NCBI GenBank assembly: GCA_029906195.1
Contig: JARWSJ010000001.1
Span: forward strand, 2,542,001 to 2,606,000
Source of the DNA: Chitinophagaceae bacterium 26-R-25
GTDB taxonomy: Bacteria > Bacteroidota > Bacteroidia > Chitinophagales > Chitinophagaceae
DNA length: 64,000 nt
Direction: 5' to 3'
The notes under the pieces: model-generated
Databases searched by the model: none
Seen by the model: the letters and a program-made list of their open reading frames with translations, nothing else
Told to the model about the DNA's origin: nothing
Translations under genes and position numbers: made by a program
Shown here: in pieces, positions 1-3,527 of the stretch
Layout of the letters: each line of letters opens with the position of its first letter
Position numbering within the stretch: position 1 is the first letter of the stretch

Positions 1-410
1 AACGCTCCTTTTACTGCTGCTTCAGGCCCGCTATACTCCGTGCCCCACATAGGATGCGAGGCAACGAATCTTTTACGTTTTGGATGGTTACGAACTGCTT
101 CTATCAAAAGATGTTTTGTCGATCCCATGTCGAATACCACCTGCTTGTCGTTTACTTTATCAAGTATCGAAGGCAGTATTTCAATCATTTTGTCTACCGG
201 AATGGCCAAGGCAATTACATCACAATTTGCGATGGCTTTGTCAAGATCCATTGCTTCATCGATCAGGCCGAGATCAAGCGCTTTCTTTAAATGCGCGGGG
301 CTTGCATCTACACCAACGATGTTGGATGCGATTCCGTTTGCATTTAACTGCAAAGCCATTGAGCCTCCTATGAGACCTATACCGACGATTGCAATTCTTT
401 TTCGTTCCAT
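1..410 (-). CDS. tyrA: Prephenate dehydrogenase, 3' end outside window
   Basis: Oxidative decarboxylation of prephenate to 4-hydroxyphenylpyruvate, the tyrosine branch of aromatic synthesis. The ATG is at 408-410 and the visible 136 codons run off the left edge. The N-terminus has the Rossmann motif GIGLIGGSMA, then VDAS as the likely end of the second strand, and the SHPMWGTE motif typical of the family. It is third in a minus-strand run with pheA and an aminotransferase, so Phe and Tyr synthesis are probably co-transcribed. The 158-bp gap to the aminotransferase is filled by repeats. Whether a fused domain follows cannot be seen. Confidence 0.93.
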   Translation of the reverse strand, partial: MERKRIAIVGIGLIGGSMALQLNANGIASNIVGVDASPAHLKKALDLGLIDEAMDLDKAIANCDVIALAIPVDKMIEILPSILDKVNDKQVVFDMGSTKHLLIEAVRNHPKRKRFVASHPMWGTEYSGPEAAVKGA

Positions 411-462: not shown

Positions 463-583
463 ATCATTTTCAACTTTCAACTTTCAATTTTCAATTCTAA
501 CGCCTTTTGGGTGTAACAGGGCGAATGCGATTCGCCCCTACGGAGTCCTCATTTTCAACTTTCAATTTTCAACTTTCAATTCT
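463..583. repeat. Word-repeat array (CAACTTTCAATTTT) around a REP hairpin
   Basis: Two blocks of TTTTCAACTTTCAA-type words (about 465-496 and 550-580) lie in the same orientation and flank the palindrome at 519-537. The right block contains the last codons and the TGA stop (569-571) of the aminotransferase gene, which ends Ile-Glu-Ser inside the repeat word. Confidence 0.85.
519..543. repeat. REP-like palindrome, copy 1
   Basis: Stem GGGCGAAT (519-526) pairs with ATTCGCCC (530-537) over a 3-nt loop and is followed by CTACGG. A second copy with the same stem and the same CTACGG tail is at 1855-1879. Short GC-rich palindromes of this kind are typical REP sequences mobilised by RAYT transposases; the link to the RAYT in this window is not shown. 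Confidence 0.75.
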
Positions 584-1723
584 CCTAATCGCTTCTTCAA
601 ACTTTTCCACCGGCGCACACAAGCTCACGCGGATGTAACCGTTGCCATTGCTACCAAATATGCCGCCTGGCGTGATGAATACATTTGATTCGTACAACAC
701 TTTATCGCTTAGCGCATATCCGTCTGCGTAAGTCGCTGGTATTTTGGCCCAAACAAACATTCCGGCTTGCGTGGTATCGTATTCGCATTGTAACATATCC
801 AGCAATTGAAATACTTTTTTTCTTCTTTCACGGTAAACGTTGTTCACACTGTCGTACCATTCTTTACCGAGGTTCAAAGCCGTTGCAGCAGCCAGTTGCA
901 CAGGCAGGAACATGCCGCTGTCCATATTGCTTTTGAAGCGTAACACTTCTTCTATTCTTTCTTTTGCTGCGACTAAAACACCCACTCTCCAACCGGCCAT
1001 ATTCTGGCTTTTGCTGAGCGAGTTTAATTCTATCACAACGTCTTTTGCACCTTCTACAGATAGCAAACTTTCCGGTTGCTCATTTAAAATGAAGCTGTAT
1101 GGATTGTCGTGAACGAGTAACAAATTATTTTTCTTAGCAAATGCGACAACGGCTTCAAATGCTTTCCTGGTTGGCAGTTGACCGGTTGGCATGTGCGGAT
1201 AGTTAACAAACATCAGCTTAACATTGCCTTGTTCTTTTACCACTTTTTCAAGCGCTTCAAAATCAGGGAACCAATTGTTTGCTTCTGTAAGATCGTAGTA
1301 CAAAGGCGTTCCACCAGCGAGCTTTGCAGCACTTGTGTAGGTTGGGTAACCGGGATTTGGCACCAATACCTTATCGCCTTCATTCAGGTAAGTCATGCAG
1401 ATATGCATGATGCCTTCTTTACTGCCAATCAACGGCAATACTTCCGTATCAGGATTCAGATCAACATTGTACCATTTTTTGTACCAATCGCTTACAGCTT
1501 TGCGCAAAACAGGAGAACCCTGATAACTCTGGTATGCGTGCACGTTTGGCTTTGCGCTTTCTTCCTGTAATGTTTTGATCACGTCAGGGTGCGGTGGCAT
1601 ATCAGGACTTCCAATTCCCAAATTAATGATGTTTTTTCCTGCCTTGTTCAGCTCGCCTATCTCACGCAACTTTTGTGAAAAGTAGTATTCGCCTATTCCG
1701 TTTAACCTGTTTGCTGTCTGCAT
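569..1723 (-). CDS. PLP-dependent class I/II aminotransferase (probable aromatic aminotransferase)
   Basis: 384 residues of fold-type I aminotransferase. N-terminal INLGIGSPDMPPHP is the substrate-loop region, VPNPGYPTY is the cofactor-phosphate area, VNYPHMPTGQ stands where NPxNPTG is usual, and LNSLSKSQNMAGWRVG holds the Schiff-base Lys; IRVSL near the C-terminus carries the carboxylate-binding Arg. The sequence resembles LL-diaminopimelate aminotransferase-like enzymes, but its place between pheA and tyrA argues for transamination of phenylpyruvate and 4-hydroxyphenylpyruvate. The last residues (IES) and the stop are encoded by a repeat word. Substrate is inferred from context. Confidence 0.9.
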   Translation of the reverse strand: MQTANRLNGIGEYYFSQKLREIGELNKAGKNIINLGIGSPDMPPHPDVIKTLQEESAKPNVHAYQSYQGSPVLRKAVSDWYKKWYNVDLNPDTEVLPLIGSKEGIMHICMTYLNEGDKVLVPNPGYPTYTSAAKLAGGTPLYYDLTEANNWFPDFEALEKVVKEQGNVKLMFVNYPHMPTGQLPTRKAFEAVVAFAKKNNLLLVHDNPYSFILNEQPESLLSVEGAKDVVIELNSLSKSQNMAGWRVGVLVAAKERIEEVLRFKSNMDSGMFLPVQLAAATALNLGKEWYDSVNNVYRERRKKVFQLLDMLQCEYDTTQAGMFVWAKIPATYADGYALSDKVLYESNVFITPGGIFGSNGNGYIRVSLCAPVEKFEEAIRRIES

Positions 1724-1734
1724 GTTTTTATTAA

Positions 1735-1879
1735 TTCAAAAATTAAAATTCAAAATTCAAAAACCTGTTGTGTTTATACTTTCCGATTGTTTTGCATCCT
1801 CATTTTCAACTTTCAACTTTCAATTTTCAATTCGGACATCGCTTCGGTGCTCCAGGGCGAATTCGATTCGCCCCTACGG
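1735..1879. repeat. Word repeats and second REP palindrome between pheA and aminotransferase
   Basis: ATTCAAAA-type words at about 1735-1763 and TTTTCAACTTTCAA words at about 1800-1832, then the palindrome GGGCGAAT/ATTCGCCC at 1855-1873 with tail CTACGG to 1879. The TAG stop of pheA (1874-1876) lies in this tail, so the REP supplies the end of the gene. Confidence 0.85.
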
Positions 1880-2701
1880 TTTTAACACCCCTTTCTTGTA
1901 CACTCCGTACACTTTCAAATCTTCTGTCATCGGCGTTATTTTCTCCACTACTGTATTGAATTGCTCCAATGAATCGAATTCCATATCCGCGTGGAAAGAG
2001 TATTTAAAGTCGCTGCCCGGAATGGGGAAGCTTTGCAATTTGCTAAGGTTGATGCCGCCTTCGGCGATGTTGGTGAGCACTTTTGCGAGACTGCCTCTGG
2101 AGTGATCTGTGTGGAAATTAATGGAAGCTTTGTCTGCGTTGGATATTTCCTGTGCTATATTTTCTGGCTGTAATATCAGGAACCTTGTGTAGTTGTTCTT
2201 TAGCGTGTGGATGTTGGGGGCGATCATATCCAAATCGAAGAGTTCTGCGGCGAGTTTGCTGGCGATGGCGGCGATGTGCTTGCTTTTGTGCTGGTGAACA
2301 TGTTTTGCGCTGAGTGCGGTATCTTCCGTTTCGACCAATTTCCAGTTGTGCTTTTCGAGGAAATCTATACACTGCAAAATCGCCATCGGGTGTGAGTGAA
2401 CTTCTCGTATATCCTCCAGTTTTACGCCGCGGTTTACCATCAGGTTTTGCGCGATATGAAGGTAAACTTCTCCCACTACCTTCAATTTGCCTTTCTGGAG
2501 CAAATTGTAGTTGGGTAAGATGCTTCCGGCAATAGAATTTTCAATGGCCATCACGCCGCCGTCGCTTTCCTTTTTGTTGGCTGCTATTTTAACCACATCA
2601 CGAAATGTGGGGCATGTAATGACCTCTACGTCCTTCCCGAAAAATTGCCTTGCGGCCACCTGGTGAAAACTACCTTCGTATCCCTGAATCGAAACTTTCA
2701 T
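1874..2701 (-). CDS. pheA: Prephenate dehydratase
   Basis: Converts prephenate to phenylpyruvate, the committed step to phenylalanine. 275 residues, the usual size of a stand-alone dehydratase without a chorismate mutase domain. Residues 1 to about 185 are the catalytic lobes, with GYEGSFHQVAA at the start, VMAIENSIAGS, and NNYTRFL, which holds the conserved Thr-Arg-Phe. An ACT regulatory domain follows (about 195-275; SRGSLAKVLTNIAEGGINLSK and the SFPIPG turn that replaces ESRP), suggesting feedback by Phe. It is the first structural gene of the operon and lies 18 nt after an attenuator terminator. Its TAG stop lies inside a REP tail. Confidence 0.96.
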   Translation of the reverse strand: MKVSIQGYEGSFHQVAARQFFGKDVEVITCPTFRDVVKIAANKKESDGGVMAIENSIAGSILPNYNLLQKGKLKVVGEVYLHIAQNLMVNRGVKLEDIREVHSHPMAILQCIDFLEKHNWKLVETEDTALSAKHVHQHKSKHIAAIASKLAAELFDLDMIAPNIHTLKNNYTRFLILQPENIAQEISNADKASINFHTDHSRGSLAKVLTNIAEGGINLSKLQSFPIPGSDFKYSFHADMEFDSLEQFNTVVEKITPMTEDLKVYGVYKKGVLKP

Positions 2702-2718: not shown

Positions 2719-2748
2719 ACAAAAAATCCCGGCGTTTCTGCCGGGATT
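2719..2748 (-). terminator. Attenuator terminator of the pheA operon
   Basis: Read on the minus strand, AATCCCGGC (2748-2740) pairs perfectly with GCCGGGATT (2733-2725) over a 6-nt loop and runs into TTTTTGTTTT. It sits between the leader peptide and the pheA ATG, so termination here would silence the operon. The 3' arm sequence GCCGGGATT occurs again at 2804-2796 inside the leader ORF and can compete for the same partner as an antiterminator. Confidence 0.9.
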
Positions 2749-2773
2749 CATTTATGTTGTTAGTTGTTTTTAT

Positions 2774-2860
2774 TTAACGACGATTCAACAAAAGCAATCC
2801 CGGCTTCTGACTAAAGAAGAAGTAAAAATAAAATCGGTTATGCTTTTTCGAGTTGATCAT
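2774..2860 (-). CDS. Phe/Tyr-rich leader peptide of the pheA attenuator
   Basis: A 28-codon ORF starting ATG at 2860 and ending TAA at 2774-2776, too short for normal ORF calling. Residues 10-16 are FYFYFFF: five Phe and two Tyr codons in a row, the signature of a leader peptide that senses charged tRNA-Phe and tRNA-Tyr. Right after these codons the ORF contains GCCGGGATT (2804-2796), identical to the 3' arm of the terminator at 2725-2733 and complementary to its 5' arm. A ribosome stalled on the Phe/Tyr run would leave this segment free to form the antiterminator and let pheA be read. Analogous in role to enterobacterial pheL, though not evidently homologous. Confidence 0.88.
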   Translation of the reverse strand: MINSKKHNRFYFYFFFSQKPGLLLLNRR

Positions 2861-2867
2861 TATTTGT

Positions 2868-2898
2868 CAAAAATATAAACTATTTGAAACTATCAAAA
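2868..2898 (-). promoter_or_regulatory. Promoter of the pheA leader
   Basis: Minus strand: TTTTG (2898-2894), an 18-nt spacer, then TATTTTTG (2875-2868), matching the Bacteroidota TTTG-N19-TAnnTTTG consensus. Transcription would start only a few bases before the leader ATG at 2860, so the 5' end of the leader mRNA is very short. Confidence 0.65.
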
Positions 2899-2963: not shown

Positions 2964-3527
2964 CTATTGCAGGCGATTTAAAATCTGTTGGTCAATTTTC
3001 TTGAAAAGATGGTATGGCTTGTAAATCCGCCAGTTATCTATCTCCATCAGCTCGACGTAATAATTCAGTTTTGCCTTTTTGAAGTCATACTGCGTTTGTT
3101 CTGGCATGTTAAGGCACACGATCCAGCCCTCGTTATCGGTCACTTCTTCAAACCATTCCTGGTAATAATCCTTGTCGCCGCTATGGAAATTGAGCACATT
3201 TTCCGTTATCAAAATGAATTTCGTGATGCCTTCGTATTCCATTTTGTCGATCACATCCCGTTTCAGGGTCATGATGTCGTTTTCAATCGCATCGTTCCAT
3301 TCGCCGATCATTTCGAGGATCACGTATTTCTCTTCGTAATCGGCCATTATTTCCTTCATGTACAGGGTGCGTGAGCCAAATTCATCCCACTGCGGGTGTA
3401 TATAGTAGTTATACACCGTGTGTGTAAACTCGAATTCAGAGTACACCCTTCCATAAAAAGGCGACCGCTCGTCTTCCTCGCTGGTATAAATATGCCGCCA
3501 GTTATAAAAAGGTTCTATTTCGTGCAT
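2964..3527 (-). CDS. Conserved hypothetical protein, soluble, acidic
   Basis: 187 residues, rich in aromatic and acidic residues, with no signal peptide or membrane segment. The N-terminus reads MHEIEPFYNWRHIY and a central stretch (about 92-108) MEYEGITKFILITENV looks like a buried strand. No catalytic motif is recognised. It has the look of a lineage-restricted Bacteroidota protein. The gene is on the same strand as pheA, but 100 bp and the leader promoter separate them, so it is probably not part of the amino acid operon. Confidence 0.8.
   Translation of the reverse strand: MHEIEPFYNWRHIYTSEEDERSPFYGRVYSEFEFTHTVYNYYIHPQWDEFGSRTLYMKEIMADYEEKYVILEMIGEWNDAIENDIMTLKRDVIDKMEYEGITKFILITENVLNFHSGDKDYYQEWFEEVTDNEGWIVCLNMPEQTQYDFKKAKLNYYVELMEIDNWRIYKPYHLFKKIDQQILNRLQ

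Follow-up and report, generated by a model that had tools for sequence, protein, structure and literature searches.

A conserved Phe/Tyr leader upstream of pheA in Pinibacter as a probable ribosome-mediated transcription attenuator

The pheA gene of the 64,000-nt stretch of DNA analysed here (i.e. the window) is preceded by a real, complete and conserved attenuator, as seen from its parts, geometry, conservation, covariation and genomic context. We are highly confident that this element acts as a ribosome-mediated transcription attenuator for Phe and Tyr, and its mechanism is very likely the classical one. On sequence comparison, the window is part of a Pinibacter (Chitinophagaceae) genome, with a pheA that is 97% identical to those of P. 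aurantiacus and P. soli. All of the parts originally predicted were present on the minus strand of the window, and the locus has the following features:

2894–2897, minus strand: -33 TTTG box of a predicted Bacteroidota (sigma-ABfr type) promoter, by match to the consensus TTTG / TAnnTTTG
2868–2875, minus strand: -7 box TATTTTTG, at a distance of 18 nt from the -33 box; the leader ATG follows after 7 nt
2774–2860, minus strand: leader ORF MINSKKHNRFYFYFFFSQKPGLLLLNRR, 28 codons plus stop, ATG at 2860
2813–2833, minus strand: sensor codons FYFYFFF, the Phe/Tyr run inside the leader ORF
2804–2819, minus strand: P1, small hairpin CTTCT / AGAAG of the last Phe/Tyr codons with the bases immediately 5' of arm 2, its position being taken from relatives by analogy (the window's own fold pairs this region slightly differently)
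2786–2804, minus strand: arm 2, antiterminator 5' strand GCCGGGATTGCTTTTGTTG, wholly within the leader ORF (fold and covariation)
2740–2759, minus strand: arm 3 CAACATAAATGAATCCCGGC, pairing with arm 2 or, via its 3' half, with arm 4
2720–2733, minus strand: arm 4 GCCGGGATT and the start of the T-rich tail, 3' side of the intrinsic terminator
1874–2701, minus strand: pheA, prephenate dehydratase (PF00800; Pfam), ATG at 2701
569–1723, minus strand: class I/II aminotransferase (PF00155; Pfam)
3–410, minus strand: start of tyrA, prephenate dehydrogenase (PF02153/PF20463; Pfam and sequence)

Past the window edge, the same strand carries a DAHP synthase-chorismate mutase fusion, aroB, aroA and aroC. 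As the first ORFs (i.e. pheA, aminotransferase and tyrA) are separated by gaps of about 150 and 158 nt, their location on a single transcript is put no higher than plausible.

The 28-codon leader ORF with FYFYFFF (i.e. five Phe and two Tyr codons) was found at 2860–2774 as originally described. A chance origin of the run was rejected, as no other 7-codon Phe/Tyr run was present in any of the six window frames and none of 100 dinucleotide-shuffled windows contained one. The promoter claimed for this ORF was also recovered, with the -33 TTTG at 2897–2894, the -7 box at 2875–2868 and the ATG at 2860; its consensus, TTTG / TAnnTTTG, is stated in PMC7366714. The transcript is predicted to begin a few nt before the leader ATG (i.e. 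near-leaderless). According to a passage of PMC7366714, the median 5' UTR of B. thetaiotaomicron is 32 nt and those of <10 nt make up only ~3.7%. A perfect TAnnTTTG with at least three of the four -33 bases and a gap of 4–10 nt to the start codon preceded 67 of 94 distinct leaders, where the start was chosen by script as the last in-frame ATG before the Phe/Tyr run and, for some of the 10-nt gaps, an earlier in-frame ATG is closer to the -7 box. The same arrangement (gap of 3–11 nt) before an ATG in the first 40 codons was present in one of 38 long window ORFs. Conservation of the predicted near-leaderless start is therefore wide.

The terminator and T run before pheA and the identical copy of the terminator 3' arm in the leader ORF were both confirmed. 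The hairpin (2748–2725, minus strand) consists of AATCCCGGC, the loop AGAAAC and GCCGGGATT followed by a T-rich stretch, and the second copy of GCCGGGATT is at 2804–2796. The distance to pheA had been given as 18 nt; the end of the 3' arm is 23 nt from pheA, and the lower figure fits roughly only if counted from a point lower down in the T-rich stretch. The 9-bp antiterminator of the original prediction was its outer half only, as the predicted fold extends to 17 bp with GCCGGGATT and TTTTGTTG pairing with AATCCCGGC and AAA/CAACA. The leader stop codon of the window genome is located inside the antiterminator loop, and the inner half of the antiterminator explains a recurring peptide end, '-PGMLLLK'. 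Location of the competing arm inside the ORF, which had been regarded as unusual, is the norm in relatives and recurs in the trp and ilv leaders of this genome. The element combines a short ORF, predicted to be translated, with a codon run for the end product of the operon, an intrinsic terminator between this ORF and the first gene, and a mutually exclusive antiterminator built on the terminator 5' arm.

Conservation was assessed for 110 pheA loci, comprising 30 from genomes of relatives (L001–L030) and 80 from named records (L031–L110), many of them metagenome-assembled; the two sets partly share genomes, and the number of distinct cores was 94. A Phe/Tyr leader preceded pheA in 106 of 109 loci with upstream DNA (L096, with 45 nt upstream only, was left out), including all 79 judgeable named-record loci, and the conservation looked for in related genomes was thus present. 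A hairpin script kept 102 of the 110 loci. Seven loci (L021, L027, L028, L030, L048, L084 and L096) did not reach the leader criterion of this script and L038 was scored without a hairpin; follow-up scans recovered the element in L021, L038, L048 and L084. The leader was absent from L027, L028 and L030 by both ORF scan and covariance model. These are three of the five same-order loci outside the family and have pheA genes of 42–43% identity.

The spacing of the parts was examined in the 90 of 94 leaders for which the script found an arm 2 core (none was found in four). Arm 2 began 7–11 nt after the last Phe/Tyr codon, with a median of 8 and quartiles of 8 and 8. A ribosome with this codon in its A site should reach about 9–10 nt further, such that a stall anywhere in the run would leave nearly all of arm 2 open. 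The stop codon was 14–43 nt (median 22) from the terminator 5' arm and, with a ribosome covering up to 12 nt past a stop codon (PMC4833913), a terminating ribosome would spare the terminator. The outer half of arm 2 (i.e. GCCGGGATT) is upstream of the assumed footprint of a ribosome at the stop codon and is probably already behind it, so blocking of the antiterminator by this ribosome is a matter of inference. A Trp codon was present in 10 of the 90 measured leaders (L036, L040, L046 and others), in several cases just before the run (WFYF), and could extend sensing to Trp in view of the shared shikimate genes.

The arm 2 core was in frames 0, 1 and 2 in 74, 7 and 9 of the 90 leaders, respectively, and where it occupied another frame the peptide end mostly differed while the RNA was kept, indicating that it is the RNA and not the peptide end that is conserved. 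This bears on the proposal, compatible with attenuation, that the leader peptide also acts in trans in the manner of peTrpL of Sinorhizobium meliloti (PMC7298713). The recurrence of the Phe/Tyr run in relatives would fit such a role, but as the C-terminal part shifts in frame and sequence there is no conserved peptide outside the run that needs explaining, and a function in trans is considered improbable.

For the attenuator reading, we infer ribosome stalling, sensing of both amino acids and competition between the two helices in vivo. RNA polymerase would start a few nt upstream of the leader ATG, with a ribosome loading almost at the 5' end. When charged tRNA-Phe or tRNA-Tyr is scarce, this ribosome would stall in FYFYFFF with its leading edge at about the start of arm 2, as arm 2 begins 8 nt past the last sensor codon. 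Arm 2 would then pair with arm 3 over 17 bp, the terminator would be blocked, and pheA and the genes behind it would be transcribed. When Phe and Tyr are plentiful, the ribosome would run to the stop codon in the antiterminator loop and either cover the loop-side part of arm 2 or separate arm 2 from arm 3. Arm 3 would then pair with arm 4 and transcription would end.

Compensatory changes in the arms were sought in an alignment of 93 distinct leaders (A1), from which L025 was excluded as the script had picked the wrong hairpin. For the terminator, 90.1% of 1193 cells were paired, with two-sided changes at 11 of 13 pairs. For the antiterminator, 83.3% of 1735 cells were paired, with two-sided changes at 17 of 19 pairs, and these counts are understated where arm 2 is shifted by one base because of misalignment by MAFFT of the species concerned. 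All five covariation measures of the two helices were reached by none of 500 shuffles, which ignore the kinship of the sequences, and exceeded every slid register. Both helices therefore covary above shuffled and slid controls, as expected from the original prediction and, together with the leader in 106 of 109 loci, supporting its interpretation as an attenuator. The clearest individual cases are L039, with a joint change of arms 2 and 3 (CCAGG/CCTGG) and CCGGG retained in arm 4 via wobble, and L010, L023 and L026, in which all three arms deviate from the usual sequence. The last of these (PheA identity of 48%) keeps all three in another sequence, CGAGAC/GTCTCG/CGAGAC.

The covariation of arm 2 with arm 3 and the recurrence of the Phe/Tyr run also tell against an ordinary intergenic terminator accompanied by a chance Phe/Tyr-rich ORF, with the pheA promoter elsewhere. 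An ORF at 2964–3527 lies upstream of the leader on the same strand, such that a terminator here would not be odd. This terminator is, however, downstream of the predicted promoter and inside the leader transcript, and promoter-like sequence directly precedes the leader in most relatives, making this explanation very improbable. Translational control, in which the hairpin masks the pheA start region, is similarly hard to credit: in the window genome, pheA begins only about 23 nt past the hairpin, but a T-rich tail follows the hairpin and the interval between hairpin and pheA varies from 7 to 230 nt over 102 loci, a spread that masking of the start fails to explain. Amino-acid genes of Firmicutes are regulated by T-box and riboswitch elements. 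Direct sensing of the amino acid by an element of this type, with control of such genes in that phylum as its precedent (PMC2965389), has a negligible probability given that the predicted transcript before arm 2 is nearly all leader ORF and that no T-box model match was obtained at the site, including among permissive Rfam matches.

The P1 hairpin was compared with mononucleotide shuffles of its 26 nt in the 93 leaders, giving a mean z of -2.25 with z ≤ -1 in 74 leaders, and folds of -1 kcal/mol or better were obtained in 84. Two-sided changes occurred in 55 cells, and at two of the pairs both bases differed in 23 and 20 sequences; two of the five covariation measures were not above shuffles (107 and 326 of 500 as high). 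P1 is probably real and is perhaps an RNAP pause hairpin. Folding was also used to look for a separate arm that would sequester arm 2 until arm 3 is transcribed, and gave only P1 and partial pairing. In the folding model of 78 leaders, the mean pairing of the arm 2 core before arm 3 is made was 0.71, as compared to 0.57 with shuffled upstream sequence and 0.98 with arm 3 present, suggesting that arm 2 may not be freely available.

The distribution of the element was examined beyond the family. Among 119 genomes sampled from class Bacteroidia, 33 had a PF00800 match, and a leader ORF of at least five Phe/Tyr in seven codons was present at 20 of 30 loci and absent from 10, or present at 17 of 27 without three loci (L161, L173 and L175) that repeat genomes of relatives, including the window's own. 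In the phylum outside this class, a Phe/Tyr leader was found at one of 38 loci (L159), a count in which absence is a weak statement for chorismate mutase-PheA or longer fusions (frames of about 380–740 aa) because the search range of 400 nt before the aligned part falls partly or wholly inside the gene. In L159, whose pheA is 53% identical, the leader and a terminator precede pheA, and this leader was perhaps transferred together with the gene. From the difference between 20 of 30 and 1 of 38 loci, the element seems to be ancient in Bacteroidia and, in the sample used, rare outside this class.

A covariance model was built from 93 leaders. Applied to 69 loci, L026 being the only one that had contributed to its alignment, it gave 20 matches (E < 0.005), one of which (L170) falls below the leader-ORF criterion. 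Among 59 whole genomes, a match was located just upstream of pheA in 24 of 25 family members with pheA, most of which had also contributed to the model, and none of 11 family members without a pheA match had a model match under E 0.5. One match (G017:C162:930–1049; E 0.0025) was away from the pheA of that genome and might mark another gene. In a search with stricter filters, the window genome contained one match (E 2.9e-14); a second copy was rejected as the next-best match had an E of only 6.5.

Leaders of similar design, each followed by a terminator, were found before hisG, trpE and ilvD in the window genome. The hisG leader (L190, G000:C1) encodes MKINIHIHHHHFISNG, with the terminator gggcttac/gtgagccc and a T run directly before hisG and a predicted promoter, TACATTTG, located 10 nt upstream of the leader ATG; it is likely to be a His attenuator, and folding of its transcript before terminator closure gave another hairpin and no antiterminator. 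The leader before trpE (L191; MKKQVINIQWWWHTNSSGVV, terminator ggccccgaa/ttcggggc), where Rfam Trp_leader scored 38.5 bits, just under the cut-off of 41, is a likely Trp attenuator. An Ile/Val leader, MLQSRIHNVISQIAIIIVVVVIIIPAINGGGIQV, with the terminator gacccgcct/aggcgggtt precedes ilvD (L193/L198). In the trp and ilv leaders, the competing arm is inside the ORF and folds with the terminator 5' arm. Neither of two homoserine dehydrogenase genes examined had a clear attenuator. A Thr leader before thrA was rejected, the ORF MAQLNLHITSSALTATAAATTIAIIATR being present with no T-run terminator seen after it. The short Thr/Ile/Ala-rich ORF at L196:698–784, about 105 nt before a thrA-like gene, has a hairpin, AACCCGTTAAGGGTT, at its end with no T run seen.

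A wider proposal, advanced tentatively and with slightly less than even confidence, is that amino-acid genes of Bacteroidia are controlled by near-leaderless attenuators forming one family (Phe/Tyr, His, Trp and Ile/Val in the window genome) in which SD-free ribosome loading is immediate and the 8-nt spacing serves as a ruler for the ribosome edge. Such a family would require tight transcription-translation coupling in the phylum, for which we know of no test, and an untranslated leader would lead to read-through and not termination. The element offers a ready-made reporter for transcription-translation coupling, near-leaderless initiation and ribosome footprint size in Bacteroidota, and the leader alignment could seed an Rfam family.

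A search of the window with Rfam returned no family above threshold. The best family at the site was RF01859 (Phe_leader; 'Phenylalanine leader peptide'), which scored 29.8 bits over the full model with E values of 0.0022 on 211 bases and 0.15 on 15 kb; as the gathering cut-off of 55 bits was not reached, the element is outside this family. RF01859, which we take to be the enterobacterial pheL leader, has the same gene, pheA, and the same logic of a leader peptide with alternative antiterminator and terminator. The pheL leader presumably has a Phe run and no Tyr run, whereas in Pinibacter the run contains both Phe and Tyr codons, the leader starts near the predicted 5' end and the arm competing with the terminator is wholly inside the ORF. 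In the E. coli trp attenuator, a stalled ribosome selects the antiterminator over the terminator, and a stalled ribosome would make the same choice in Pinibacter. In contrast to E. coli trp, no arm hiding arm 2 was found in Pinibacter, where P1 ends beside arm 2 without pairing to it in the fold; if such an arm is truly lacking, an untranslated leader should read through and not terminate. Leaders for several amino acids are known from ilv and thr of E. coli. A literature search found no description of the element in Chitinophagaceae and priority is uncertain; the comparative survey of attenuators by Lopatovskaya et al. (2010) may include Bacteroidetes. For Flavobacterium psychrophilum, which shares phylum and gene with the Pinibacter element, the section of PMC9723704 on 5' cis-regulatory RNAs reports strong clues that leader-peptide attenuation operates upstream of amino-acid operons, along with conserved 5' elements without Rfam hits before pheA and hisG in Flavobacteriaceae; leader sequence, arms, covariation and amino-acid specificity are not given there. 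The attenuation principle is thus classical but little described in Bacteroidota, and was foreshadowed in print for Flavobacteriaceae. The trpL attenuator of S. meliloti is likewise ribosome-dependent and its transcript begins at the leader ATG (PMC7298713), a precedent for a leaderless start; it differs in responding to Trp, in belonging to Alphaproteobacteria and in having a reported 5' end where that of Pinibacter is predicted. The element described here has three features that recur: a predicted near-leaderless start, a mixed sensor and a competing arm within the ORF.
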